Part shown: piece after piece, positions 34,503 through 63,891 of the stretch | Layout of the letters: each line of letters opens with the position of its first letter | Position numbering within the stretch: position 1 is the stretch's first letter | NCBI RefSeq assembly: GCF_016862375.1 | Contig: NZ_BOMV01000104.1 | Location: 1 to 64,000, forward strand | Direction of reading: 5' to 3' | Length of the DNA stretch: 64,000 nt | Source of the DNA: Paractinoplanes rishiriensis | GTDB lineage: Bacteria > Actinomycetota > Actinomycetes > Mycobacteriales > Micromonosporaceae | Translations under genes and position numbers: made by a program | Notes under the pieces: generated by a model | The model's input: only the letters and a program-made list of their open reading frames with translations | Told to the model about the DNA's origin: nothing | The model's database searches: none

Positions 34503-34699
34503 AGCCGTAATTCGAAGCCCCGCGATGCCTGGACGTCGGATGTTGCGTACCGCACAGGACGCTGCCGCCGCGATACCGGCAACGGGTTGCCGTCCGGCCC
34601 CGGCGACCTGCGCGTATGCCGTGCATCCGGCGTACACGGCCGCTCACGCCCCGCTCCCTAACGTCGGTTGGCAGCAGATCTCTATCGGAAGGAACCGAT

Positions 34700-48062: not shown

Positions 48063-49157
48063 TCAGCTGCGGGTGCGCAGCAGAGCCGCGCCGCAGTTGG
48101 GCCGGTAGATCATCCGGTTGGAGCAGCTGGCGAGGTTCCAGTTGCTCGCCAGGTACGAGCCGGCCGGCGGATTGGGGTGGAAGTAGTCGTTGACGTTGCA
48201 GTCCCAGTAGTAGTCGAGGTTGCCGTTCGGAGACGGGCACACGTCGGTGCGGTAGCCGGACGAGCGGGGACCGCCGTCGTTGTAGCACATGACGTCTGCG
48301 TCGTCGTTGCAGTGACCTCGGCCGGAGCCGTTGGGCGTGTTCGGCAGGACGGCGCCCATCGAGTGCCCCTGCTCGTGCAGCATGTAGGTGAAGGGGCACC
48401 GGCCGGTGACCACCGCAACGCCCGGGGCGTTGTTGACGGGGTTGTCGACACCGGGTCGAGCGTCCCCGGAGCCCCAGGCGACGCCGCCGCCACAGCCCCC
48501 GTTGCCCCAGTACACGACGTTGTCCTGGCCGGTGGCACGCAGCCCCTGCCGGTTGAGCTCCTGGTCGACCGAACCGATGCTCCCGTTGTCGGTGCTGCTG
48601 CGCAGGACGCGGACGGCGGGCTGTCCGGCAGCTTCGCACGCGACCCGCAGCGACAGGTCTCCGCCGAACTCCGCGGCCCGGTCGGACACCATGGCGTTGG
48701 ACTGGATGAAGTGCTGCTGCATGAGCGGGACCATCGTCGCCGACGCGTCCGTGCCGTTCGCCGGGATCATGTAGACCAGCTGGATGCGGTACGAGTCGGT
48801 AGCGCAGAAGTGCGCACGCGCGGCGAGCGCGGCCGACCCGCCCGTGATCGCCTTGAGCGAGTCGCGGGTGCCCTTGTCCTTCGCCGTCGGGGGGTCGATG
48901 TGCGTGATCCGGTCACCGTTCGCGGTGCGCAGCTTGAACAGCCCGTCGCCCATGGCGCACACCCGATCGCCCAGCGCGGGGTTGGGGGCGAAGTCGTCGT
49001 CATGCAGGCAGCGGTCCGACTCCGTGGCGGAGTGGTCATGCCCAGCGACGACGGCAGCGACCGGAACGAGGGTGCCCGCTATCGCTGTGCCGGACAACCC
49101 CAGTGCGGACGCGGCGACCACGCCGGCCGCGATCACGAGAAGCTTCTTGATAGGCAC
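48063..49157 (-). CDS. Secreted zinc metalloprotease-like protein (HEXXH)
   Basis: 364 residues. I chose GTG 49157, which has GGAGGT 4 nt upstream, over an in-frame TTG at 49175. A Sec signal peptide (IKKLLVIAAGVVAASALGLSG) ends near residue 28-40. Near 261 the zinc motif HEQGHSMGAV appears (His-261, Glu-262, His-265), with HC and DD residues shortly after as possible third ligands. The protein has many Cys (at least 12), suggesting several disulfides, and an Asn/Gly/Trp/Tyr-rich C-terminal ~100 residues. It resembles secreted peptidases of actinomycetes without a named substrate. It is divergent from the three-gene large-protein operon. Confidence 0.87.
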   Translation of the reverse strand: MPIKKLLVIAAGVVAASALGLSGTAIAGTLVPVAAVVAGHDHSATESDRCLHDDDFAPNPALGDRVCAMGDGLFKLRTANGDRITHIDPPTAKDKGTRDSLKAITGGSAALAARAHFCATDSYRIQLVYMIPANGTDASATMVPLMQQHFIQSNAMVSDRAAEFGGDLSLRVACEAAGQPAVRVLRSSTDNGSIGSVDQELNRQGLRATGQDNVVYWGNGGCGGGVAWGSGDARPGVDNPVNNAPGVAVVTGRCPFTYMLHEQGHSMGAVLPNTPNGSGRGHCNDDADVMCYNDGGPRSSGYRTDVCPSPNGNLDYYWDCNVNDYFHPNPPAGSYLASNWNLASCSNRMIYRPNCGAALLRTRS

Positions 49158-49259
49158 GCAGACCTCCGAGGTCAATCAGCATGGTGTGTAGGCCGGCCCG
49201 GATAGGCGCCACAGGACGCACCCTGTGCCGCACCGGATGAGCGGGCGAGAGGCAGCCGC

Positions 49260-49279
49260 TTCCGAACACGTTTTCGGAA
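49260..49279. promoter_or_regulatory. Inverted repeat TTCCGAA-N6-TTCGGAA
   Basis: A perfect 7-bp-arm dyad with a 6-nt centre, 103 bp upstream of the metalloprotease start and ~270 bp upstream of the large-protein operon. Likely an operator; its protein is unknown. Confidence 0.5.
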
Positions 49280-49362
49280 GGCGTCGGATCAGCCCACGAG
49301 TGCGAGAGCAGGCCTGACACCATGCTCGCGGTCGGCTCGCCACGCATCGACGTACATCTATT

Positions 49363-49374: not shown

Positions 49375-49548
49375 GGTACTTTAGCCCCATGCGGGCGAGG
49401 TCACAACCATTCAGGGTCATCGATGCCAGGCCGGCCTCGGGTCCGCTGGTCGCCGGGCCCGATCGCCAGAGGCGTCGGATATCTGATCACAGTGTTGGGC
49501 CACGGGCCAGGCCGTCCGAGACTGACTGCCCGACCCTTGGGAGGGCGC

Positions 49549-52500
49549 ATGGCCCTGCAGACCGCGGCCTTGACGATGACCGCTCTCGGCGTGCTGAACG
49601 ACGCGGTGCTGCGGCCGGGCGTTCACCTGCGCTGGTCCGTCGATCCGGCTGCCGGGTTCCCGCCGCACGGCTTCGACGTCCAGCGCCGGGCCGCGCGCTC
49701 CGGCACCGCGCAGTCCGTCGATTTCACCGCGCTGCCGGGCGGGCCGGTGCCGCCGGCACTCACCCTCGGACCGCTCGTGCTGCGGTCGGCCACCACCGGC
49801 GCGCCCGCCGAGGTGATGACCGAACTGGTCGGCGGGGCGCAGGTGCCGGTGCTGCGGCCGGCCGTCGCCGGGGCGATCACCGGTGAGCTGACCAGCGCGG
49901 CCGCGCCGGTTCGCCGGGTCGACATCGACATCGTGCATTCCGTGCCGCAGTCCACCCGCCTGCTGCCGTTCGACTTCGTCGTCTGGGGCATCGCCGGCGG
50001 CCGGCGGGTCTGCTCGGCATCGCTGCGGCTCACCGAGCAGAACCGATTCACCGCGCTGCGGGTGAGCGTCGCCGCCGATGCCCTCGACGGATTCCAGATC
50101 CAGGGACGGCGCCAGGTCGCCTACTACTACAAAATCATTGCCGTACGGTGGGCGACCGTCGCCGACGAGGCCGACGACGGGTGGGACCCACCGCTGAACC
50201 CGAGACGGATCGGCTTCCCGGTCACCGCGCCCGGATACCAGGTGCCGCACGGGCACGGCGCCGACCCCGGCACCGGGGCACAGGACTGGCTCGAGGCCGC
50301 CGACCGGCTGAGCCCGACCGGGTCGGCGGCCGGACTTCCGGCCCCGCTGGCCGCGCAGTTCGGGCCGCCGGAGTTCAGCCGGACCCGGGAGATCTTCCGC
50401 GCGGCGATCGCCGGGCGGCAGCTGACGCAGAGCGGCAGCGGCACCACCGCCCCCACCGTGGAGGTCGACGCGATCCGCCTGGTCCAACTCGGCGCGCTCG
50501 ACCCGGACGTCGCGCGGATGGCCGGGCTCGCCCTCGTGGACGGCACCGCGCAGCCCGGTGTCAGTTACGACTACCAGGTCGTCGGCTACTGGCCCGGACC
50601 GATCCGGTGGGTGTGGGTGTGCCGCGACGTCCCGGTGACAGACGAACCGGTCCGCGTCGACCTGCCCGTCCCGAGCGGCGCGGTCCGGGTGACGGCGCGA
50701 TCCGCCGGACCGGGTCCGCTGATCGTGCGGGTGTCCTCCGGGCACGGCCGCGACGTGGTGCGGCGGGTGCCGGCCGGGCCGATGCGCACCGTCACGGTGG
50801 AGGCGCCCGACATCGGCACGGTGTGGGTCGACGGCGACAGCCCGGTCGTGACCCAGGTGTGCCACCTCGAGCCGGTGCAGGACATCCTGCGCCACCGCTG
50901 GATCTGCTTCGGGGTAACCCGCGGACCGGTGCCCGCACTGCGCACGCCGGTCGCGCCGGAGGCCGTGCCGATGCCGGGTTTCGCCCGGCGGTTCGCCGCC
51001 GAGCAGGTCGTCGGGCTGCGTCTCGATCCGGTCCCGGCGCGCGTCCTCGACACCGGCATGCTGCCCCTGGCGGCCGCGCTGACCGACCCGATCTCGTACG
51101 AGGTGCAGCGGCGCACCGAGGGCGCCTGGACGGACCTGGTGACACCGCCCGGTTCGGAGCTGGGCGACTGGGCCGATCGGGCGGCCGACCCGCTCGCCGG
51201 CCGGACCCGGCCGGTGTTCCGCTCCTCCGCCCGGCCGGCCGCCTTCGTCCCGGCGCCGGGCTGGCCGGACGATCCGGGCGACCTGGTGGACGACCGCCTC
51301 GACCCCGGCGTCCGCCACTACCACTACCGCTGCCGGGCGCGGGACCTCCACGGAAGGGTCAGCGACTGGTCGGCACCGTCCGAGGTGGATGCCGCCGATC
51401 GGGTGCCGCCGCCGCTGCCCGGCGCCGTGACCGGCCGGTGGATCGACCGCTCGGATCCCTACCTGGCCGCCGACGACGCTGCGGAGCTGGACCACGCCGG
51501 GGTGGACCGGGCCGCGCTGCTGCGCTGGTCGTGGCCGGAACGGTGTGTCAGCCAGGCCCCGGACACGGTCGGTTTCCGGGTCTACTGGAACGACCGTCCG
51601 CACGGCACGGTGCTGGCCGCCGTCACCGCGGTGACGGCGGACGCCGACGGTTACCGGGTCACCGTTCCGCTCGGGAGACAACCGCCGGCGGACGCATTCC
51701 GCGGCGACTGGCTGCGGCAGGGCAACCGGCAGTATCTGATCCTCGGCAACACGGCGGCGGAACCGTCGGTGCTGACCCTGAGCCGGTCCGGGACCGAACC
51801 GCCGGCCGCCGGCCCCTGCTCGGTCTCGATGCGCGGGGCGGACCCGGAACGCCTGGACCTGCTCGGCAACCCGCTGCGGCCGGACCCGAGCCGGGCTGCG
51901 GCCTGGCAGCGGCGGGTCCTGGAGGTCTCGACGGCATCGGTCAGCTTCGACATCCTCCAGGAGTCGGCCGGCATCGCGGTCCACTGCGACGCCGTCGAGC
52001 CGGACCATCCCCGGGCCGGCCAGACCACCGTGCGGATACCGCCGTCGTGGGTCTTCGCCGGCCCGATCCCGGAGGGGCTGTCGCTGTCCGGCCGGCCGGT
52101 GGTGAGCGCGGCGCTCGGGCGGCACGGCGCCACCCTGGTCGTGGCGGCCGGGCCGGTCCTCGCGCCCGGACCGGCCATGCTGGAGGCTCCGGGACTGCGC
52201 ACCATCCGGCTCGCCGGCTACCTGCCGGACGACTTTCCGCCGCTGATCGGCGGCGTCGCCTGGGCCGGCGACGCGGGCCTGCCGGTGATCGCCCACACGC
52301 CGTCGCCGTTGCGCCTCGTGGTGCTGGGTGAGCCGCCGGTGCCGTACGTGACATGGCTGCCGGACCATCAGGTGGTGCTGACCGGCGTCACCCTGCCGGT
52401 GACCGCCGCGCAGCCGGAGGCGACCGGTGTGCTCGGGGTCAGCGCATTCGACGGCCGGCCGTGGACGCCCGACACCCGCAACCGGCCGGATGAGCCGGGC

Positions 52501-53931
52501 GGACCGGGCAACGAGGGTCCCGTCGCCGCCGTGCCCGTACGCCGCCACTACCTCGACGCACCGGCCGGCACGGTCGCGCCGCCCGGGGTTGCCGAGCAGT
52601 GGGCCGATCCGCCCGACGAATTCAGCGGTCGCAGCCGGTTCCGGCTGCGGTGGCCGGCCGGCACCGGCACCCGGTTCCACATCGATCACGCCACCGTCGG
52701 CGACGTGCTGGCGGCCGACGCCGCGGACCGGGCCGCCTGCCGCGGGGCGTACACCGGCGCCCCGGCACTCGACCCGGCCGAGCTGGCCGCCTGGCGTGCC
52801 CAGCAGGCGGCGCTGCCACCCGGCGGCCTGCGGACGCTGGCCGACCGGCAGCCGTCCGTCTTCGCGCCGGTGACCGACCGCCCGCTGGAGGCGGCCGACC
52901 CGCTGCTGGCCGACCCGGAGCCGGGCTGGCTGTCCTGGCCGGTGCCGCTGGACGGCACGGCGCCGGCCCGGCACCTGCTGCGGGTACGGGTTGTCGACGC
53001 GGCCGGCAACAGCGGCCCGCCGGGTCCGGCCACCCCGCCGGTGGTCGTCCCGGACGTCCGCCGGCCGCCGGCACCCGTGCTGCGCCGGGCCGTGGGCGGG
53101 GACCGCGAGGTGTGGCTGTTCTTCGACGGCGCGGGAGCCGCCGCGGCCGGATACCGCATCCTCCGTACGCCGTGGCCCGCAGGCAGCCGGCCCGAGCCCT
53201 CGGACATGACCGTGCTGGCCACGGTCGCTCCGGACCGCTGCCCGGAGCCGCTACCGGTGGTGTCCGGGGTGGTTCGGCTGCCCGGGACGCCGCCGGACGA
53301 GGTGGTGGCCGTCCACCTCGCCACCGGCATCACCGCGGACGGCCTTCCGGAGGGCGATCCGCTCCCGGGGTCGTTCCCGCTGACCGGCGCCGAGGTGACC
53401 GGCCTGTCCGCGCTGCCGGACGGCACGCTCGTCTACGTGGCCGCCCGGACCCCGGCCGGCGGTCCCGTGGTGGTCCTGCCGACCGGCGCCCGGCTGGCCT
53501 GGCGCGACGGCACCGCCGAGCCCGGACGCGCCTACCAATACCGGATCGAGTCGCTCCGCTCCGCGCAGGTGGGCCCGGTCGCCACGGTCGAGGTGCGGTC
53601 GCTGCCCAGCGACGTGGGCGAGGCCACCGCCTTCGACTCCCGCCCGCCGGTGGCGCCGGCCGGGGCCGCGGCGTACGACACCGCCACGGCCGCGGTCCGG
53701 ATCAGCTGGGCGACCGGCCCGGTCGCGGACCTCGAGGTCAGATGCGAACGAGCCGACCTGCTCGACGGCCGGTGGGCGCCGGTGTCCGGCTGGGTGCCGG
53801 GCGGCGACGGCCTCATCGAAGACCCGGAAGTGGGCTCCGGCCATCTCTACCTCTACCGGCTGCGCGGCCGGGACCGCTGGGGCCGGCTCAGCCGCGGGGA
53901 ACCCCGGATCGGCCCGGTGACCGTGCCGTGA
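49549..53931 (+). CDS. Large multi-domain beta-rich protein, first gene of the three-gene operon
   Basis: 1460 residues from ATG 49549, with GGGAGGG at 49539. No signal peptide and no transmembrane helix is visible. The N-terminal ~400 residues begin LQTAALTMTALGVLNDAVLRPG with a GVHLRWSVD strand, and look like a head domain. From ~540 onward several segments have the spacing of FN3 or Ig-like sandwiches: YHYRCRARDLHGRVSDWS, HLLRVRVVDAAGNSG, PPAPVLRRAVGGDREVWLFF and, at the end, LYLYRLRGRDRWGRLS. Trp-Ser and D-x-x-GR endings repeat. I do not recognise the overall family. The next gene starts 22 bp later, so the three genes form one operon. A structural, adhesive or assembly role is the best inference, and the location (cytosolic or exported without a Sec signal) is open. 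Confidence 0.88.
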   Translation: MALQTAALTMTALGVLNDAVLRPGVHLRWSVDPAAGFPPHGFDVQRRAARSGTAQSVDFTALPGGPVPPALTLGPLVLRSATTGAPAEVMTELVGGAQVPVLRPAVAGAITGELTSAAAPVRRVDIDIVHSVPQSTRLLPFDFVVWGIAGGRRVCSASLRLTEQNRFTALRVSVAADALDGFQIQGRRQVAYYYKIIAVRWATVADEADDGWDPPLNPRRIGFPVTAPGYQVPHGHGADPGTGAQDWLEAADRLSPTGSAAGLPAPLAAQFGPPEFSRTREIFRAAIAGRQLTQSGSGTTAPTVEVDAIRLVQLGALDPDVARMAGLALVDGTAQPGVSYDYQVVGYWPGPIRWVWVCRDVPVTDEPVRVDLPVPSGAVRVTARSAGPGPLIVRVSSGHGRDVVRRVPAGPMRTVTVEAPDIGTVWVDGDSPVVTQVCHLEPVQDILRHRWICFGVTRGPVPALRTPVAPEAVPMPGFARRFAAEQVVGLRLDPVPARVLDTGMLPLAAALTDPISYEVQRRTEGAWTDLVTPPGSELGDWADRAADPLAGRTRPVFRSSARPAAFVPAPGWPDDPGDLVDDRLDPGVRHYHYRCRARDLHGRVSDWSAPSEVDAADRVPPPLPGAVTGRWIDRSDPYLAADDAAELDHAGVDRAALLRWSWPERCVSQAPDTVGFRVYWNDRPHGTVLAAVTAVTADADGYRVTVPLGRQPPADAFRGDWLRQGNRQYLILGNTAAEPSVLTLSRSGTEPPAAGPCSVSMRGADPERLDLLGNPLRPDPSRAAAWQRRVLEVSTASVSFDILQESAGIAVHCDAVEPDHPRAGQTTVRIPPSWVFAGPIPEGLSLSGRPVVSAALGRHGATLVVAAGPVLAPGPAMLEAPGLRTIRLAGYLPDDFPPLIGGVAWAGDAGLPVIAHTPSPLRLVVLGEPPVPYVTWLPDHQVVLTGVTLPVTAAQPEATGVLGVSAFDGRPWTPDTRNRPDEPGGPGNEGPVAAVPVRRHYLDAPAGTVAPPGVAEQWADPPDEFSGRSRFRLRWPAGTGTRFHIDHATVGDVLAADAADRAACRGAYTGAPALDPAELAAWRAQQAALPPGGLRTLADRQPSVFAPVTDRPLEAADPLLADPEPGWLSWPVPLDGTAPARHLLRVRVVDAAGNSGPPGPATPPVVVPDVRRPPAPVLRRAVGGDREVWLFFDGAGAAAAGYRILRTPWPAGSRPEPSDMTVLATVAPDRCPEPLPVVSGVVRLPGTPPDEVVAVHLATGITADGLPEGDPLPGSFPLTGAEVTGLSALPDGTLVYVAARTPAGGPVVVLPTGARLAWRDGTAEPGRAYQYRIESLRSAQVGPVATVEVRSLPSDVGEATAFDSRPPVAPAGAAAYDTATAAVRISWATGPVADLEVRCERADLLDGRWAPVSGWVPGGDGLIEDPEVGSGHLYLYRLRGRDRWGRLSRGEPRIGPVTVP

Positions 53932-53952
53932 CGAGCAGGAGGGGGTACGGCG

Positions 53953-56259
53953 ATGCCCCGTAGATGGCTGCGATTCCCGCTGACCGCGACCGATCAGGCC
54001 CGCGCCGACCCGGCGACGATCACCGTGCTGGACGGCGGCCCGGCCCATCCCGACCGGCTCCGGCTGGAGTTCGACGTCACCAATCCGGCTGCCGGGCCGC
54101 CCGCCGTCCGGCCGCTGTTCCCGGGCGTGCTCAGCTTCCTGGCCGACCCGGGTGCCCCCGGTGTCCTGCCCGCCGCCACCGACCCGTTCACCTGGACCGA
54201 CGCCGAGTATGCCGGCTGGCGCACGGTCGGCACCCTGGTCATGGAGCTGGACCCGACACTCGTCCCGGCGCTCGGCGTGCGGCCGGCGCCCACCGTGGCC
54301 TGGTACTGGCCGGTCCGGCTGAGCCGCGACTTCCTGCTCGACTCGGTGCGCCATCAGCTGGTCAAGTCGAAGGTGCGCCGCCCGGCCGGCGGCGAGGTGG
54401 CGACCGGCGACCCGCGCTGGCCGGCCCATGCCGTCAGCGGCCTGCTCGCCGGCACCCATGCGGTCAAGCTGCGGACGCCGGCCGCCGAGGACCAGGACGA
54501 CGCGGTCCGGTTCGCCATGCCGACGGTCGAGCTGGCCGCCGACGGGTCGACCGGGCTGTGGATCGCGGTGGCCGCCGGGACGTCCACCGACGACGGCGTC
54601 GTCCCCGCGCCGGTGCCCGGCACGGTCCCGCTCCTGGATCCGGCTCACCCGGCAAACGCCCTGCTGGACGCGCGCCGCACCCTCATTTCGCTCCGGTCGC
54701 AAACGATCGGCGCCGAGGCGGGAGTCGGCCCGCTGGTGTCCACGGCGCTCCCGGACGGCGCCTGGCCGGCCGGTCCGCGCTGGTTCACCGTCGCGTTCAG
54801 CACGCCCGGTGCGGCCGGGTTCGCCTACCGTTCCGGGGCCCTGCCGGCCGTCGGCGTCGAGGTGACCACGGCGGCCGGGATTGTGTTGCAGCAGCGCCGG
54901 CTGTCGACCCGCGGCCTGATCACCGTCATGCAGGAGCCGACCGACCCGGCCGCACCGCCGCCGGTGGTGCGCTGCACCGTGGACCCCGGCGCCGACCTGC
55001 GCCTCGCCGAGACCAACGGCGCGCGGCCCGGGCCGCCCGAGACGATCGAGTTCGACTTCGCGACGCTCACCGAGCCGGCCCGGGTGGTGCTGCAACCGCC
55101 ACCGCCGCCGGTGCTGGACGCCGCCGGCAAGGCTGCCTACGCAACCCGGCTCGCCACCCTGAGCCTGCGGCTGGGCCGGACACCTGCCACCCGCGAGGCG
55201 GTCGGCGAGCGGCTGACGACCGACGAGTCCCTGATCCGGCCGGTGGCCTGGCCGGCCGGCACGCCGGTGTTCCGGGGCACCCGCCGGCCCTGGGCCGGCG
55301 CGGCCGACCCGGCCAACCAGAACGTCCTGGTCGACGGGCCGGGCCTGGCCGACCTGCGCGCCCTTTTCGACGCCCTGCAACAGCTGACGCCGGCCCCGGG
55401 CCGGCCACCGATCCGGCCCGCCGAGGCGATGGTGCTCTGGCTGATGGAGGGGCGGGTGGCGCTCGGCTCGGAGGGATTCTTCAACATCCCGATGCTGGCA
55501 CCCGGAGCGAACACTTCGTGGATCTTCGCCGACCGCACGGGTTTCTCCGGCAACCCGTTCGACGCGGCGGTCTTCGGCGCGGCCACCGAGGCGCAGACCC
55601 GCACGTTGCTGCGAAGCATGCTGCTGTGGAACTGCTGGGGGATGGACGTCTTCGCCGCGACCGACAAGCTGCCGGGGCAGGACACGACGCTGCGCTGGGA
55701 GCCGACGATCGCCGCGAGCGCCGCCGGGCACGACACGAAGTTCCGCACCGCGCTCGCGGCCATCGCCGCGGCCGGGTTCACCGTACCCACCGAGGCGCAG
55801 GTCAACGGCACCATCGAGCTGCGGCCCATGATCGGCGGTGGCTGGGAGTTCCGGCTGAACGCCGGCTACGTGCGCACCCACCTCCAAATCCAGTACGGCG
55901 AGTACCTGCGCCGCCAGGTCGCCTACCTCGACCCGGCCCGCACCGCACCGCATCCGGCGCTGCCGGCTGCCGCCTGGTCGCTGCCCGCCTTCAACTACAT
56001 CGCCTTCAACGGCGGGCTGGCCGAGGCCGGCCGGCTCTGGGCCGTCGCCGACGGTGTCCTCGCCGGGGGCGCCGCGCCGCCCTGGGTGCGCAGTCACCAG
56101 GACGCCCTGCGGACCTTCCGGCTGACCGCGGACGAGCAGCAGCGGACTCCGCTCGCGGCACCCGAGACGCGGTCCCGGGCCGCACGTGTCAACGGCCTGC
56201 ACTTCGCGGCTCTCGTCGACGCGTTCGGCGCGGCCTATCCCCGCGTTCTCTACCCGTAG
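53953..56259 (+). CDS. Protein of unknown function, second gene of the three-gene operon
   Basis: 768 residues from ATG 53953, with AGGAGGGGG upstream. No signal peptide or membrane helix. The first ~400 residues are beta-rich (RFPLTATDQARADPATITVL, LRLEFDVTNPAAGPP). The region ~480-680 has helical and aromatic segments: PAEAMVLWLMEGRVALGSEG, FFNIPMLAPGANTSWIF, LLRSMLLWNCWGMDVF and, near the end, AFNYIAFNGG. A Trp/Glu-rich helical region of this sort could be an enzymatic or lysozyme-like fold, but no catalytic signature can be assigned. It is tightly placed between the two giant genes (21 and 10 bp gaps), implying a stoichiometric or coupled product. Confidence 0.85.
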   Translation: MPRRWLRFPLTATDQARADPATITVLDGGPAHPDRLRLEFDVTNPAAGPPAVRPLFPGVLSFLADPGAPGVLPAATDPFTWTDAEYAGWRTVGTLVMELDPTLVPALGVRPAPTVAWYWPVRLSRDFLLDSVRHQLVKSKVRRPAGGEVATGDPRWPAHAVSGLLAGTHAVKLRTPAAEDQDDAVRFAMPTVELAADGSTGLWIAVAAGTSTDDGVVPAPVPGTVPLLDPAHPANALLDARRTLISLRSQTIGAEAGVGPLVSTALPDGAWPAGPRWFTVAFSTPGAAGFAYRSGALPAVGVEVTTAAGIVLQQRRLSTRGLITVMQEPTDPAAPPPVVRCTVDPGADLRLAETNGARPGPPETIEFDFATLTEPARVVLQPPPPPVLDAAGKAAYATRLATLSLRLGRTPATREAVGERLTTDESLIRPVAWPAGTPVFRGTRRPWAGAADPANQNVLVDGPGLADLRALFDALQQLTPAPGRPPIRPAEAMVLWLMEGRVALGSEGFFNIPMLAPGANTSWIFADRTGFSGNPFDAAVFGAATEAQTRTLLRSMLLWNCWGMDVFAATDKLPGQDTTLRWEPTIAASAAGHDTKFRTALAAIAAAGFTVPTEAQVNGTIELRPMIGGGWEFRLNAGYVRTHLQIQYGEYLRRQVAYLDPARTAPHPALPAAAWSLPAFNYIAFNGGLAEAGRLWAVADGVLAGGAAPPWVRSHQDALRTFRLTADEQQRTPLAAPETRSRAARVNGLHFAALVDAFGAAYPRVLYP

Positions 56260-56269
56260 GAGGCGGACG

Positions 56270-59200
56270 ATGCCCGGAGCGTCCAGCAACACGCTGTTCC
56301 CGCTGAGCGACCTGATCTCCGCGGAGCAGTTCCCGCTCGCCGAGGTCCTCGACGGTCTCTACTACACCCAGGCCGAGGCCTTCCCGGCCGGCGACGACCT
56401 GGTGCTGCTGCTGACCCTGACCTTCGAGCGGGAACTGGCGTTCGGCATCCCGGGCGTCGACGACCTGGCCGTCGTGTTCGGCTCGGCCGGCGCCGGCTGG
56501 ACGTCGCTGACGGTAGAGCTCGTGTTGGGTCCGAGCCCGTCGATCTCGTTGCGTGACGTGGACATCGCGCTGCGAGTCCCGGCGAGCGTGCTGCGCGACG
56601 TCGCCACCGGCGGCCCCGCGGAGATCCACTGTGCCGCGAGCGTCACGGTGGACGCCGAGGGCAACGTGACGGTCGAGACCGACGCCGCGCTCAGCCTGGC
56701 CGAGGCGGAGATCGCCGGCAGCGGCGTCACGATCAGCGCCACCAACGTGACCTGGAACTTCGAGCGGGGGCGCGGCCTGCCCACCGCCGAGGCGGCCGGC
56801 CTGCCCGGTGAGTTCCTGGGCATCGCGTTCGAGCAGGCCACCGTCACCCTGCCCGCCGAGGTGGCCGGCGCGCCGACGCTCACCCTCGACCATTGCTGCG
56901 TCGGCACGGGCGGGTTCACCGGCGGCCTGAGCGTCACCTTCGACGCTCCCCCGGCCTGCCAGTTCGGCGGGTTCACCGTGGAGCTCGAACGGGTCGGTAT
57001 CCGCTTCGTCCGGTCCCGGCTGGTGCTGGGGCAGATCGAGTCCGTCGTCCGGGACCTGGACTTCTTCGACACCGACCTCGCGGTGGACCTGCAACTGTCG
57101 GCGGCCGGGATCCGGCTCGCGCTGGCCACCGCGGCCGGTCGGCTGCGCGGCTCGGCAACGCTCACCGACGGCCTGGTCACCGTACGGAAGCCGGGGGTTG
57201 TCGCGATGACCCTCACCGGCGTGACCCTCGAGATCGGCGCGGCCGAGAGCGCGCTCAGCCTGAGCGGCACGATCCGCCCCGAGATCGGCCTTCCCGGTTC
57301 CGGACCGCTGCCACCGTTCACCGTGGACGCCCTGCGGATCTCGTCGACCGGCACGGTGAGCGTGGCCGGCGGCTGGCTGGCCCTGCCCGCCGCGGCCCGC
57401 GTCGAGCTCGGTGGCTTCACGCTCACCCTGACCAAGGTCGGGCTCGGCTCGGAACCGTCCGGTGACCGGTGGATCGGCTTCTCCGGCACCCTCAGCCTGG
57501 TCTCCGGGATTCCGGTCACCGCGGCCGTCGACGGGCTGCGCCTCCGGTGGAACGCGGGCGGTCTGACCGGGGTGGAGCTGGCCGGGGTCGCGGTCCATCT
57601 GGAGGTGGAGAACGTCCTGGTGCTCGACGCGCAGGTGCGCTACCACGCCGAGGACCAGCGGTTCGACGGCGCCGGCACGCTGCGGCTCGTGTCGGTCAAC
57701 CTCACCGTGAGCGTGCGGGTGGTGGTCGGCCGCCGGGCGGACTACACCTACCTGTATGTGTACCTGCTGGTCCAGCTGCCGGTCGGCGTCCCGCTGTTCA
57801 GCACCGGCCTCGGCCTGTACGGGTTCGAGGCGCTCTACGCCCGCAACATGGCCCCCGACAAGGACCCGGCCGAGCGCTGGTACCGGGACTGGTACCGGCG
57901 ACCGGAGATCGGGGCCGCGGATCAGTCGAAGTGGGCGGACGAGCGGGGCAGTCAGGGCTTCGGGGCCGGCGTCATCCTCGGCACCATGTCCGACACCGGT
58001 TACACGGTGGCGGTCAAAGGGCTGCTCGTCGTAGTGGTGCCCGGGCCGATCCTGATGCTCGACGTCCGGGCCAACCTGCTCAAGGACCCGACCGCCATCG
58101 CGGCGCCGCAGGCACAGGCCCTGTTCACCTCGCTGGTCGTCTTCGACGGCCGGGCCGGCACGCTGGAGCTGGGCATCGAGCCGCACTACGCCTACCCGGA
58201 CGACGGCCGCCTGGTCGACGTGACCGGCGTGGCGGAGGCGTTCTACAACTTCAGCGATCCGCGCGCCTGGCACCTCTATCTCGGCCGCCGCGAACCCGAG
58301 CAGCGGATCCGGGCCCGCCTGCTGTCCATCTTCGACGCCAACACCTACCTCATGGTCGACGCCAACCAGATCGAACTCGGCGGTTTCATCGGCTGGCAGG
58401 CCCAGTACGCGTTCGGTCCGGTACGTCTCGGGCTGGAAGCGTGGATCGAGGGCATGGCGCTGGTCTCCCGGCAACCCAAACAGCTCCGGGGCGAGCTCAG
58501 CCTGCACGGATCGGTCGGGCTGTCGGTGTTCGGCATCGGTTTCGACCTGTCGGTCACCGCGATGCTGGCCGTGCAGTCGCCGGACCCGTTCGAGGTGACC
58601 GCCGCCCTGCGGGTGAAGGTGGACCTGCCCTGGCCGCTGCCGGACTTCGAGAAGTCAGTCCGGCTGCGCTGGGCCGAACCCGCGCCGCCGCGCCTGGCCG
58701 ATCCGCTGCAGACCGGCGGCATCGAGCATCTGCGCACCACGGCGAGCTGGCCGTTCGGCGCCGAGGCACCCACCGTGCCGCTCGACGGCCGGATCAGCCT
58801 GGCGTTCGCGACCCCGGTCGAGGACGCGGTGCGGGCCGCTGCCAACCGGGAGGGACCGGTCGACCAGCGGGTCGGTGAGTTCACCCTGCGGTCGCGGCTC
58901 ACCGGGCTGCGGCTCGACGTCCTTGACGAGAGCACCGGTACCTACATCCCCTACGCGTCTCCGGACGGAACGGCACGGCCGCTGTCCGCGATGTGGCAGC
59001 GCCAGGCCGGCGATCCCTCGTTCGGCAACCGGCATCTGATGCTGGGCGTGCGGACGCCGTACGAGCGCACCCGAGCGGTGACCGAGCCCGCCGTCACCCA
59101 GCTCGAGGAGGCGGAGGAGTTCGACCCGTGCCGGCCGGCGGCGCCGGTCCGGGTGCTGACCTTCGAACACCATCCGGTACGCCGTCTCGAGCCGCTGACC

Positions 59201-60874
59201 GCCTACGACGGCGGTGACGCCGTCTGGACGCCGGGCCCGGCCGGCGCCGACATCCTGCCGATCTCCGCCGCCTCGGCCGCTTACCCGGTGCGGCGGGAGC
59301 CACCCCGGCGGTACCCGCGTTGCCTGTTCGTGCCGGACCAGTGGGGGATCGTGCCGGTGCCGGGCGCCACCGGCCGGATCGCGGTGCCCCTCGCACCCGC
59401 CCCGGCCCTGCGGCTGGATCTGCCGGCCGCCGCCGAGGGCCTGGCCGTACTGGTGATGACGACCGGGACCTGGTCGCTCACCGGTTACGACGCCGCCGGA
59501 GCGGTGGTCGCGACCGTCTCCGCCCCGGTGCCGGCCGGGCCCGGCGGGTTCCACGCCGATCAGCTGGTCCTGCGCGGCTCCGGCCTCCGCACGGTGGCTC
59601 TGAACTGCTACAGCCGCCTGCTGGTGCTCGCCGTCGCGGTGCGGACCGAGCCGCCCGCTGCGCAGACGGCCACCCGCCGCACCGAGCTGCAGCAGACCCT
59701 GGAACGCTTCCGCGGCAGCGAGCCGGTCTTCGAGCCGTACCGGCAGTACCGGCTGACCGTGACCACCCAGGTCGTGGAGACCGGCGGCCGGTCGCTGGCA
59801 GGCGCCGAGGTCGAGGCACCGGCCGGCGCGACCGCGTCGATCACCGGCGCCATCTGCACGATCACCCGGACCTTCGACTTCCGCACCGAGGGACCACCCG
59901 AGGACACCCTGGAGCCGTACGTCACCGGGCTGGCCCCGGCCCGCGGCGCCCCGGCGGTGTATCGCGACTACGACCTCGCGGTGACGTTCGGCGCGGACTA
60001 CGTCGACCACATGTACCTGATCAGCGGCCGGATGCTGGGCCTGCGGCTGCGCGCCGGCGACGGCACGGGCCAGACCCTGACCAGCACGACGGTCCCGGGT
60101 GCGGAACTGGTGCTGCGCCGGGAGGAGCGGACCTGGCTGGCCACCCTGGACCGGTCCAGCTGTGCCCTCACGGTGGCGGAGTCCGAGCTCACCCGGGAGG
60201 TGCTGATCCGGGGCGCGCTGCCGGCCGGGGCACCGCTGGAACCCCGTACCAGCTATGACGCCGAACTGGTCGGTGAGCCGGCCGGGCCGGCGCCGCGCCC
60301 GGCCACCGGCGCGCTGTGTGCCTGGTCGTTCGTCACCTCCCGGTACCGCACGTTCGCCGACCACGTGCGTCCGCACGGGACGATGCGCCTGGCCACGCCG
60401 CAGTTGTCGCGGACCGAGTGGTCGGCGGTGCTCGAACCCGTGCTGGCCGCGCCGGGGACCGTCCGGCGGGAGGTCCAGACGGCCGTGTTCACCGCGCTGT
60501 TCGCGGCTCTGGACGTGGAGCGGTCGCTGCCCGCGGAAACCGGACTGCACGCGGTGGGCGCCGGCGGCGAAACCTGGGCGCTGCTGCTGAGCAGCCCGGA
60601 GCCGTTCGACCCCGATCGTGTCCGGTTCACCGTGCGGCGGCGGATCGGCGTCACCGCGTTCGACGTCGCAACCTCGCCGGTCCCGGACGCCGACGGCACC
60701 CGGGTGCTGCTGGTGCCGCACACCGGTCCCGCGGCGGGCCTGCTGGCGGACGGGAAATACCTGGTCACCGGCCTCTTCCGCCGGAACATCGGCGCCGGGC
60801 AGCCGGTGCTGTCGGTGCAGGGCGACACCGGCGACGAGACCGCGACCGTCGAGATCGAGCTGCCGATCGCGTAG
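56270..60874 (+). CDS. Giant repetitive beta-rich protein, third gene of the three-gene operon
   Basis: 1534 residues from ATG 56270, with GGAGGCGG immediately after the preceding stop. No signal peptide. Residues ~50-520 consist of short amphipathic strands repeating every ~12-20 residues (GVTISATNVTWNF, AGIRLALATAAGRLRG, VVAMTLTGVTLEIGA, GGFTLTLTKVGLG), a pattern seen in long beta-groove or beta-solenoid proteins. Residues ~560-800 carry the most distinctive part: aromatic-rich ALYARNMAPDKDPAERWYRDWY, then LGRREPEQRIRARLLSIFDA, NTYLMVDANQIELGGFIGW and YAFGPVRLGLEAWIEG. The last ~700 residues look like further beta-domains. It may belong to an uncharacterised large-protein DUF group (DUF6603-like should be tested). 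Function unknown. Confidence 0.88.
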   Translation: MPGASSNTLFPLSDLISAEQFPLAEVLDGLYYTQAEAFPAGDDLVLLLTLTFERELAFGIPGVDDLAVVFGSAGAGWTSLTVELVLGPSPSISLRDVDIALRVPASVLRDVATGGPAEIHCAASVTVDAEGNVTVETDAALSLAEAEIAGSGVTISATNVTWNFERGRGLPTAEAAGLPGEFLGIAFEQATVTLPAEVAGAPTLTLDHCCVGTGGFTGGLSVTFDAPPACQFGGFTVELERVGIRFVRSRLVLGQIESVVRDLDFFDTDLAVDLQLSAAGIRLALATAAGRLRGSATLTDGLVTVRKPGVVAMTLTGVTLEIGAAESALSLSGTIRPEIGLPGSGPLPPFTVDALRISSTGTVSVAGGWLALPAAARVELGGFTLTLTKVGLGSEPSGDRWIGFSGTLSLVSGIPVTAAVDGLRLRWNAGGLTGVELAGVAVHLEVENVLVLDAQVRYHAEDQRFDGAGTLRLVSVNLTVSVRVVVGRRADYTYLYVYLLVQLPVGVPLFSTGLGLYGFEALYARNMAPDKDPAERWYRDWYRRPEIGAADQSKWADERGSQGFGAGVILGTMSDTGYTVAVKGLLVVVVPGPILMLDVRANLLKDPTAIAAPQAQALFTSLVVFDGRAGTLELGIEPHYAYPDDGRLVDVTGVAEAFYNFSDPRAWHLYLGRREPEQRIRARLLSIFDANTYLMVDANQIELGGFIGWQAQYAFGPVRLGLEAWIEGMALVSRQPKQLRGELSLHGSVGLSVFGIGFDLSVTAMLAVQSPDPFEVTAALRVKVDLPWPLPDFEKSVRLRWAEPAPPRLADPLQTGGIEHLRTTASWPFGAEAPTVPLDGRISLAFATPVEDAVRAAANREGPVDQRVGEFTLRSRLTGLRLDVLDESTGTYIPYASPDGTARPLSAMWQRQAGDPSFGNRHLMLGVRTPYERTRAVTEPAVTQLEEAEEFDPCRPAAPVRVLTFEHHPVRRLEPLTAYDGGDAVWTPGPAGADILPISAASAAYPVRREPPRRYPRCLFVPDQWGIVPVPGATGRIAVPLAPAPALRLDLPAAAEGLAVLVMTTGTWSLTGYDAAGAVVATVSAPVPAGPGGFHADQLVLRGSGLRTVALNCYSRLLVLAVAVRTEPPAAQTATRRTELQQTLERFRGSEPVFEPYRQYRLTVTTQVVETGGRSLAGAEVEAPAGATASITGAICTITRTFDFRTEGPPEDTLEPYVTGLAPARGAPAVYRDYDLAVTFGADYVDHMYLISGRMLGLRLRAGDGTGQTLTSTTVPGAELVLRREERTWLATLDRSSCALTVAESELTREVLIRGALPAGAPLEPRTSYDAELVGEPAGPAPRPATGALCAWSFVTSRYRTFADHVRPHGTMRLATPQLSRTEWSAVLEPVLAAPGTVRREVQTAVFTALFAALDVERSLPAETGLHAVGAGGETWALLLSSPEPFDPDRVRFTVRRRIGVTAFDVATSPVPDADGTRVLLVPHTGPAAGLLADGKYLVTGLFRRNIGAGQPVLSVQGDTGDETATVEIELPIA

Positions 60875-60963: not shown

Positions 60964-61740
60964 ATGCGACGTACGGGTAAGCGCGTGGTGCGCACGGCGT
61001 TGTTGGCGGCGATGGCCACCGCGGCGGCGGGGCTCGTGGTCGCGGGCGCCCCCAGTGCGCACGCCGACCTCGACGGCCTGGCGTTCACCCCGCGCTCCGC
61101 GTTCTCCATCACCAACACGGAGTACGCGTCCTGCGTGGACGCCAACGTGAACCAGATGCACAGCAACGGCGGCGACGTGCAGATCTACCGGTGTCACGGC
61201 CGGGAGAACCAGGTCTGGAGCGTGCGGCCGTCCGGCCAGTACTACACCATCACGCTGCAGGGCTATCCCGACCGCTGCCTGGAGGTCGAGACCGGCACCC
61301 TGCCGAACAACAACACCCCCGTGCAGCTGTGGACCTGCAACGGCTCCGACCAGCAGAAGTGGATCATCTCGCGGGTCGCCCTGGTCAACAAGTACCAGGA
61401 GATGTCCGCCGGGTTCGTCAACCGCGCCTTCCGGATCCGCAACGTGGCCGGCAACAAGGCGTTGTCCGCCGCCGGCTTGTCCGACACGGACGACTTCGTG
61501 CTCGGCGTCGTGGAGTCGACCGCGGTCTACGACGGCGGCGGCGGAATCATCATCGACGTGCCGAAGGATTTCCGGCGGGCCAACATCGCCATGCACCGGC
61601 TCCTGGACGGCGCCCCGCCGCCGAACACGGTGTGGGAGTCGCCGGTGCTCACCTGCGCGGTGTACGGCACCGACGCCTCCCGCATCACCGGCAACTTCGG
61701 CAGCGCGACCTGCCCCGGTCTGCCGACGTCAACCGGTTGA
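60964..61740 (+). CDS. Secreted ricin-type beta-trefoil lectin
   Basis: 258 residues, ATG 60964 with GGAGG upstream. The signal peptide ends near SAHA/DLDG. Residues ~45-140 hold Q-x-W-containing repeats of the ricin B fold: YASCVDANVNQMHSNGGDVQIYRC with ENQVWSV, YPDRCLEVET with PVQLWTC and SDQQKWII. The remaining ~120 residues are a separate domain with two Cys. Such proteins bind sugars on polysaccharide surfaces. It lies 89 bp after the three-gene operon, in the same direction, and ends at a strong terminator, so it could be a fourth gene of the system or an independent one. Confidence 0.88.
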   Translation: MRRTGKRVVRTALLAAMATAAAGLVVAGAPSAHADLDGLAFTPRSAFSITNTEYASCVDANVNQMHSNGGDVQIYRCHGRENQVWSVRPSGQYYTITLQGYPDRCLEVETGTLPNNNTPVQLWTCNGSDQQKWIISRVALVNKYQEMSAGFVNRAFRIRNVAGNKALSAAGLSDTDDFVLGVVESTAVYDGGGGIIIDVPKDFRRANIAMHRLLDGAPPPNTVWESPVLTCAVYGTDASRITGNFGSATCPGLPTSTG

Positions 61741-62763: not shown

Positions 62764-63018
62764 TCGGCAGCATCTGGAATCGCGCGCCGTCCCGCCGGGT
62801 GAGCCCGCGGCCGACCGTGACGGCTGCGCCTGAGTGACCGGGGCCGGGATCACCAACTGCTGGCGGGCGTCCACGGATCTCACACGGCGCCGGCCCGGTT
62901 TGTGAACAAGAGTTGACCGGCGTGCTACGAGACGCGCACACCAGGGCAACGTTCACGCAATTTTATGACGGGGCCTCCGCGCATGCGGGGGTTCCGCAGC
63001 GCCTCAAGGAGTGTCTCG

Positions 63019-63891
63019 ATGACGTATGTCAAGCCACCGGAGTTGGCGGTCGCCCTGGTCGACGCCGGCGCGTCGAAGATTCACATGTCGACGCGGGACA
63101 CGCTGGTGCGGGCATACATGGCGGGCGCGCTGCTTACTCTCGCCGCGGCGTTCGCGGTGAAAATGACCGTTGACACCGGTCTGCCGATCGTGGGGGCGCT
63201 GCTTTTCCCGATCGGGTTCGCGTTGCTCTATCTGCTCGGCTACGACCTGTTGACCGGCGTGTTCGTACTGGGACCGCTGGCCTGGCTGGCGAAACGGCCG
63301 GGCGTCACCATCGGCGGCGTGCTGCGCAACTGGGGGCTGGTCTTCCTCGGCAACTTCGCCGGCGCGCTCACCGTGGCGGTCCTCGTCACAACCTTTGTCA
63401 CGTACGGCTTCGACACGACCATCCAGGATGCGGGCAACCAGTTCGCCGCATACGGGCAGAAGCTTGCCGAGATCGGGTCCGACCGGACGCTCGGTTATGA
63501 GGCACACGGCGCCAACGGATGGCTGGCGGTGTTCGTACGGGGAATGCTTTGCAATTGGATGGTCTCGACCGGCGTGGTCGGTGCCCTGCTGGCCCGCGAT
63601 GTGCTCGGCAAAGTCGTCGTGATGTGGCTGCCCATCCTGTTGTTCTTCGCCATGGGTTTCGAGCACTCGGTGGTCAACATGTTCCTGTTCCCGGTCGGCA
63701 TCCTGCTCGGCGCGGACTTCACCTGGGCCGACTATTTCCTCTGGAACGAAATCCCGACCGTGCTGGGAAACCTGGTCGGCGGGCTGTTCTTCACCGGCGC
63801 GGCCATTTATCTGACGCATTACCGGACCGCACCGAAGACCGCAGTGGAATCGGAGATGACCGTCGGCGCGGCACCCACGCCGGGAGCCTAA
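63019..63891 (+). CDS. Formate/nitrite transporter (FNT) family channel
   Basis: 290 residues, ATG 63019 with AAGGAG 7 nt upstream. FocA/NirC family with six membrane helices: MTYVKPPELAVALVDAGASKI, TLVRAYMAGALLTLAAAF, then the LGYDLLTGVF and FEHSVVNMFLFP elements that form the two pore constrictions, and GNLVGGLFFTGA. It carries formate, nitrite or hydrosulfide across the inner membrane; which one cannot be told from sequence. The upstream 250 bp holds an A/T-rich patch (AATTTTATGAC near 62960) that probably includes its promoter. Confidence 0.92.
   Translation: MTYVKPPELAVALVDAGASKIHMSTRDTLVRAYMAGALLTLAAAFAVKMTVDTGLPIVGALLFPIGFALLYLLGYDLLTGVFVLGPLAWLAKRPGVTIGGVLRNWGLVFLGNFAGALTVAVLVTTFVTYGFDTTIQDAGNQFAAYGQKLAEIGSDRTLGYEAHGANGWLAVFVRGMLCNWMVSTGVVGALLARDVLGKVVVMWLPILLFFAMGFEHSVVNMFLFPVGILLGADFTWADYFLWNEIPTVLGNLVGGLFFTGAAIYLTHYRTAPKTAVESEMTVGAAPTPGA

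Follow-up and report, generated by a model that had tools for sequence, protein, structure and literature searches.

Tc/Rhs-type toxin complexes consist of several giant, soluble, beta-rich proteins that lack Sec signals and are encoded together. Polymorphic toxin systems join a conserved N-terminal part to an exchanged C-terminal part (Zhang et al. 2012, PMC3482391). Related in sequence to the locus examined here are two plasmid loci, an uncharacterised Mycetohabitans operon (RBRH_RS15915 / RS15910 / RS16630, pBRH02) and an unannotated locus of Azospirillum oryzae (NZ_CP054621, 418010-428350); a search of a limited literature collection returned nothing on the Mycetohabitans accessions, on DUF6603 or on the topic. 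We analysed a three-gene cassette (genes A, B and C; Table 1) of Paractinoplanes rishiriensis that lies in a 64,000-nucleotide stretch of contig NZ_BOMV01000104.1, called the window below. A and C are constant among the relatives of this cassette while the third genes differ, and the simplest reading is therefore that A and C would form a carrier and that B would consist of a docking domain and an exchangeable, envelope-directed cargo (probability about 0.45).

Searches with C turned up C-type genes at 14 loci, spread over 12 genomes or records of four phyla; 10 of the 14, first found by sequence search, built the C profile, and the Bryobacterales locus, L029, L030 and L037 stand outside it. 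The 14 loci derive from 15 listed open reading frames (ORFs), near-identical extra Mycetohabitans plasmids having been left out: L012 and L031, both from a Bryobacterales metagenome-assembled genome (MAG), were counted as one assembly-split gene because their contig ends share a 141-base word. The earlier note on this DNA, made from the letters alone, had named a lack of co-occurrence elsewhere as evidence against its proposed operon, and the genes do co-occur. Scanning with the A profile placed an A-type gene next to C in nine of the 14 loci (the window, L003, L005, L007, L010, L011, L029, L030 and L037). Six of these, found earlier by BLAST, built that profile, and in two of them (L010 and L030) A comes in overlapping pieces.

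The arrangement of the genes varies from carrier to carrier. The order is A-B-C in the window and C-A-B in A. oryzae; A-phospholipase D-C in Mycetohabitans and Solirubrobacter; A-880 aa-C in Microvirga; A-358 aa (HEAAH)-260 aa-C in the MAG locus L029, with ~640 bp between A and the next gene; 1181 aa-C-A in genome G543; and C-giant-phospholipase D-like in Paracraurococcus and Bryobacterales. Between A and C, no clear gene is seen in L010, and L030 carries two short ORFs. In the window, Mycetohabitans, Solirubrobacter, Microvirga, A. oryzae and G543, neighbouring cassette genes overlap by as much as 8 bp or lie at most 21 bp apart.

The middle genes of Mycetohabitans and Solirubrobacter encode members of the phospholipase D superfamily (PLDc_2, 8.1e-17 and 1.4e-18; motifs HSKLMIVD and HSKLLIVD) with 48% mutual identity. 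The long protein of Paracraurococcus and Bryobacterales has a phospholipase D-like C-terminal part (BLAST 4.9e-6 and 1.7e-5; z 8.5 for the Paracraurococcus alignment). The 880-residue Microvirga protein matched no Pfam family and had no relative on plasmids, and its best PDB match was weak (E 0.018). A lysozyme-like assignment for it, made from motifs seen by eye, was dropped, Pfam and an hhalign comparison with the peptidoglycan-binding family being unsupportive. The assignments of the 1181-residue G543 protein as a pyroglutamyl-peptidase and of the L029 HEAAH protein as a protease were likewise made by eye, and Pfam was unconvincing for both. The earlier note took the tight coupling of A, B and C as a sign of one complex. 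The genes indeed stay together in relatives, but a single fixed complex does not fit, because unrelated proteins replace the gene in B's place; two constant parts with a variable cargo describe the loci better.

B itself joins a shared part to one of its own. Its residues 6-207 align with the A. oryzae protein (Table 1) at a score of 251 against a shuffle mean of 45. The remaining ~560 residues align with the C-terminal part of the A. oryzae protein no better than shuffles do (z -0.55), and hhalign gave a probability of 0.2% against the peptidoglycan-binding cargo family to which that part belongs. Searches for relatives of the C-terminal part in 336 genomes of the phylum, with few candidates scored per genome, returned B alone. 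For B as a whole, an order-wide search was positive in 1 of 200 genomes (its own), none of 53 pattern matches in genome contigs was confirmed and viral contigs gave none. Pieces of B matched nothing in Pfam, and sequence comparison with the PDB gave weak matches (best E 0.051). Docking by the N-terminal domain of B cannot be general, because the phospholipase D, Microvirga and MAG middle proteins are without it.

From residue 275 on, the A. oryzae B protein matches proteins in three Streptomyces, two Rhizobium and one Nonomuraea records. Three such relatives were scanned; all were without the shared N-terminal domain (best 6.6 bits, E 0.4) and all matched PG_binding_1, the Nonomuraea protein below the cut-off. 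Invariant glutamates in a STFKV-R--SE-E--GFFD motif mark this cargo family and would suit a wall hydrolase, with no catalytic family assigned. Against the PDB the A. oryzae protein had a weak best match (E 0.18), and in phages it had none. On a Rhizobium ruizarguesonis plasmid (L039:14523-25204), two giant hypothetical genes (one of 2569 aa and one of 7470 bases, cut in the locus) lie beside a gene for a 361-residue peptidoglycan-binding relative of the A. oryzae cargo.

The cassette is rare and sporadic; its few carriers belong to several phyla and live in soil or as symbionts. A tblastn search of C against 72,556 plasmid records found six, four from Mycetohabitans (35%, E down to 1e-111) and two from Azospirillum. 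Scanning genomes with a C profile built from three sequences gave 80 pattern matches, of which seven were confirmed as loci, from Microvirga, an Acidimicrobiia MAG, a Deltaproteobacteria MAG (labelled Myxococcota in the tree), a Proteobacteria MAG of the same class, Solirubrobacter, the Bryobacterales MAG (which we take to be Acidobacteriota) and Paracraurococcus. Searching the carrier genomes and related classes added genome G543 and second loci in two genomes (L030 and L029). Counting genomes already known as carriers, the C profile was found in one of the 346 genomes searched in the window's phylum (P. rishiriensis itself), in 2 of 240 in the class of Microvirga, and, for the two further classes sampled, in 2 of 52 and 1 of 149. 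A single-protein search with C in 296 genomes of the phylum also returned itself alone; phages had none, and none of 56 pattern matches of the C core in viral contigs was confirmed. When 12 C cores were placed in a tree, Mycetohabitans (Beta) joined Microvirga (Alpha), Solirubrobacter and the Acidimicrobiia MAG in one group (100/99). The window falls outside this group (five-row group, 90/95); the deeper forks are mostly open, and three of the branches are long. The tree, together with the plasmid location of the cassette in Mycetohabitans and Azospirillum, indicates transfer between phyla.

A is related over its length to proteins of Microvirga, Solirubrobacter, Mycetohabitans and MAGs (28-31%) and of Azospirillum (24%), and reaches 37% identity to the Mycetohabitans protein over the best stretch. 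An N-terminal motif, GVHLRW..GFP..GF..RR, is conserved. A had no Pfam match, and its profile had a single weak match among solved structures, chain 5fm5_M of myomesin-1 (E=0.0084). We take myomesin-1 to be an Ig/FnIII protein, matched in its FnIII part, and A is perhaps FnIII-like. In plasmids, tblastn with A found no match, and its relatives were reached through neighbours of C. The giant proteins adjoining C in L013 and in the Bryobacterales locus are homologous to each other (44.6%) and only faintly A-like. The Paracraurococcus neighbour was rejected as an A gene, its match being limited to 31 N-terminal columns (E 0.02), and comparison did not support the 754-residue neighbour in Azospirillum thermophilum (L006), which is followed by a gene for an RTX calcium-binding protein. 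In two MAG loci (L010:4694-6717 and L030:2185-4499) the A-type gene looks split into overlapping frames, whether by decay or by assembly errors.

C is 35-37% identical to the Mycetohabitans C proteins, and its profile matched no solved structure at E<=1. An AlphaFold model of residues 1-1000, built from seven sequences, had a predicted local distance difference test score (pLDDT) of 50.7 overall. Residues 1-660, mostly at 50-78, were modelled as long antiparallel strands and nearly nothing else, which at moderate to low confidence bears out for C the earlier description of beta-rich proteins. The strands are amphipathic (alternation 0.369 against 0.251 in shuffles, 4 of 2000 shuffles being as high), with strand limits taken from this same weak model. 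The best Foldseek matches of the model were LptD and apolipoprotein B, and VIA-align matches included VDAC, LptD and apolipoprotein B. All matches, to beta barrels, LptD, apolipoprotein B and others, had middling Z or TM-scores near 0.1; they would point to a long beta sheet and to no particular family.

DUF6603, raised beforehand as a candidate family, was not supported. The PF20248 model (27-bit threshold) gave no match at E<=10 to C or to two Mycetohabitans C proteins, one of them from M. rhizoxinica, and scored 395 bits on a Streptomyces longwoodensis DUF6603 protein used as positive control. Comparison of one true DUF6603 member with the C profiles gave hhalign probabilities of 0.7% and 0.4%. 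RefSeq names one Mycetohabitans C protein (L004:19830-27320) 'DUF6603 domain-containing', a name that PF20248 did not reproduce and that may derive from another model.

A, B and C were without Pfam or NCBIfam match at E<=10 and without PADLOC match at E<=1, in keeping with the earlier view that they belong to no recognised family. By hydropathy, the accompanying view that they have neither a Sec signal nor a membrane helix is borne out for A and B, which show no clear Sec signal and no 19-residue window above 1.6, and is qualified for C, which has one hydrophobic stretch. This begins at residue 579 (hydropathy 2.11) and lies largely within predicted strands; a hydrophobic stretch near residue 600-620 also occurs in the C proteins of Mycetohabitans, Microvirga and Solirubrobacter. 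The N-terminus of A is mildly hydrophobic by hydropathy and lacks the charged start typical of a Sec signal.

Judged by sequence, the locus behaves as a module: A and C co-occur, the gene order is shuffled, the third genes differ, B keeps its N-terminal part and replaces its C-terminal part (two proteins), and the spread across phyla is sporadic. We suggest that A, B and C are a single transferable cassette. A, perhaps FnIII-like, and C, a predicted long antiparallel beta-meander, would probably build a large soluble scaffold or shell. B would be the cargo subunit, its first ~207 residues docking to A and/or C and its remaining ~560 residues serving as an exchangeable effector. The assembly would most likely act on cell envelopes outside the producer, envelopes being the presumed targets because phospholipase D and peptidoglycan-binding proteins occur as cargo. 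It would most likely leave the cell first, by a non-Sec route, perhaps lysis, because the giant proteins have no clear Sec signals. Binding between A and C, docking, release or export, envelope targets and antagonism are all steps that we infer. A further claim, tentative and short of probable, is that the cassette represents an undescribed tripartite carrier in which two giant beta-rich new families form a soluble shell, load interchangeable envelope-attacking enzymes and move across phyla on plasmids, with no known secretion or Rhs/Tc part.

Several observations weigh against this carrier-and-cargo reading. Five of the 14 C loci have no A by profile, three having another large neighbour and two being cut by contig ends; in the latter two, L008 and L009, the flank that is present is without A. 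The window's own cargo, the C-terminal part of B, appears to be an orphan with no identifiable relative or enzyme fold, and the shared domain at the N-terminus of B is known from just two proteins, the phospholipase D, Microvirga and MAG middle proteins being without it. The phospholipase D-like proteins of Paracraurococcus and Bryobacterales lack the HxK motif (the latter is cut by its contig end). A. oryzae B has no PG_binding_1 match of its own, and its link to peptidoglycan binding runs through its relatives. The structure models are weak, that of C as described above and that of A residues 1-760 with a pLDDT of only 39.5. The few neighbours scanned, some of which are probably shadow frames, yielded no secretion gene, and no immunity-like gene was recognised among neighbours that were partly scanned, immunity proteins being very diverse.

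Much of the same evidence bears on other explanations. A and C might be structural proteins of the producer's own surface, in a cell-envelope or spore-coat assembly whose variable gene supplies an enzyme for remodelling its own lipid or wall. Phospholipase D and peptidoglycan-binding partners fit such self-remodelling too, lectin and putative protease genes border the cassette in the window, and the Mycetohabitans C proteins have sub-threshold 3keto-disac_hyd matches, one also Laminin_G_3. Hydropathy, however, gives no membrane anchor or clear Sec signal, and the very sporadic distribution and plasmid location (Mycetohabitans, Azospirillum) suit an accessory trait; we consider this assembly improbable. 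To about the same degree we doubt that the cassette encodes a cytosolic complex handling lipids or metabolites, in which C would be a hydrophobic-grooved beta sheet like the apolipoprotein B and LptD-type carriers and the third protein (for example phospholipase D) would process the load. The all-beta meander with amphipathic strands in the model of C, and the LptD, apolipoprotein B and VDAC matches, agree with it.

Least likely of the three is that A and C alone make up one system on a loosely linked accessory island, the intervening genes being unrelated insertions with no shared function. Third genes are indeed unrelated in most loci, and the contents of L010, L030 and L029 between A and C are as this explanation would have them. 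Against it stand the tight spacing in six carriers and the N-terminal domain of B, which is common to two distant loci of different gene order.

If the carrier-and-cargo reading is correct, it brings in a carrier built from two giant families unrecognised by Pfam and NCBIfam. The natural cargo swaps would then mark where the cargo begins, residues 1-207 of B would give the loading rule, and further cargo could be found by inspecting the genes beside A and C. Even without delivery, a conserved module is defined where annotation offers 'hypothetical protein' or a DUF6603 label that Pfam does not reproduce.

Gene limits and contiguity were exact when the ORFs were re-checked, with gaps of 21 bp between A and B and 10 bp between B and C, after which comes the lectin gene. 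Shine-Dalgarno-like GGAGG, AGGAGG and GAGG lie 4, 9 and 6 bases before the starts of A, B and C, in line with the ribosome sites named in the earlier note. Third-position GC is 0.92, 0.93 and 0.93 for A, B and C, and second-position GC is 0.59, 0.58 and 0.53, the values for A and C being taken on the longest ORF with some upstream sequence included. Codon-position GC marks all three frames as coding, and the long ORFs on the antisense strand as likely high-GC shadows. A 780-residue open frame at 53964-56306, overlapping B in another frame, is likely such a shadow. The start of A is placed at 49549 and not at the longer 49423 frame because relatives open similarly (MALQ, MSLQ). The gene spacing suggests that A, B and C are carried on one transcript.

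Table 1. Features of the cassette and its surroundings (positions in the window)
Feature	Position	Strand	Remarks
Gene A	49549..53931	+	1460 aa; constant part 1, perhaps FnIII-like
Gene B	53953..56259	+	768 aa; variable position; shared N-terminal domain and apparent orphan C-terminal part
B N-terminal domain, residues 1-207	53953..54573	+	proposed docking domain; 35% identity to A. oryzae protein residues 7-234
B C-terminal part, residues 211-768	54583..56256	+	proposed cargo; no relative found
Gene C	56270..60874	+	1534 aa; constant part 2; N-terminal ~660 residues predicted all-beta
C stretch for family profile, residues 440-880	57587..58909	+	alignments A3, A4
Palindrome upstream of operon	49259..49280	.	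11-nt arms, 91% complementary; possible operator, putative function
Second short palindrome, upstream of A start	49475..49486	.	9-nt arms, 89%; may be chance
Metalloprotease-like gene	48063-49175	opposite to cassette	Reprolysin_5, 22.2 bits, cut-off 27, sub-threshold
Lectin gene	60964-61740	+	Ricin_B_lectin, 4.7e-15

Both palindromes reported earlier for the control region are present, among seven inverted pairs in 385 bases. Of the two flanking genes proposed to encode secreted proteins, the lectin was confirmed; the metalloprotease lies on the opposite strand and its match is sub-threshold. The scan of neighbours was partial, and codon-position GC makes it probable that three of the scanned window ORFs, at 43719, 47718 and 61931, are shadow frames. 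No component of an extracellular contractile injection system was named among the neighbours scanned, with no search aimed at sheath, tube or baseplate genes. Elsewhere in the window, a large regulator with BTAD, NB-ARC and TPR domains is encoded on the minus strand (31542-34637). Both the window (62965-63891) and A. thermophilum (L006:12766-13614) have a gene for a formate/nitrite transporter close to C, probably by chance. Before the Solirubrobacter cassette, a Kelch/glyoxal-oxidase-like ORF (L011:1091-2707) has sub-threshold matches.

Among the nearest known loci, the Mycetohabitans pBRH02 operon has related A and C genes in the same order, A-x-C, but its middle gene encodes a phospholipase D in place of B, and its C proteins have 2337-2496 residues against 1534 in the window. 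The A. oryzae plasmid locus has genes of all three types. It differs in its order and in the C-terminal part of its B protein, which is related to peptidoglycan-binding proteins and not to the window's orphan part. The DUF6603 operon on a S. longwoodensis plasmid (L038) is a row of giant genes beside a relative of the C-terminal part of A. oryzae B, the DUF6603 gene coming after the giant gene that carries this relative. Its stretch L038:9349-25860 encodes the peptidoglycan-binding giant (1514 aa), the true DUF6603 protein, an FG-GAP/VCBS giant and another large gene, with a gene for an RHS-core protein nearby. Its DUF6603 and VCBS proteins differ from those of the cassette, giving no alignment with the C or A profiles (hhalign 0.1-0.7%). 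Perhaps a second operon of giant proteins, unrelated in sequence, uses cargo of the A. oryzae type, and if so it would fit the idea of exchangeable cargo.

From the Tc/Rhs complexes the cassette differs in that A, B and C have no Rhs/YD repeats or other Tc Pfam family. It resembles polymorphic toxins in the constant N-terminal and exchanged C-terminal regions of B and its A. oryzae counterpart, a likeness seen in these two proteins only, and in the occurrence of the A. oryzae C-terminal part elsewhere without the N-terminal domain. We did not file it with them because Pfam at E<=10 showed neither a trafficking nor an Rhs-type domain in any of the three proteins, and because no immunity gene was recognised among the neighbours, which were scanned in part. 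The logic of a constant carrier with an exchanged effector is already known from polymorphic toxins (PMC3482391); in the cassette, by difference, exchange is mostly of whole genes beside two constant giant genes.
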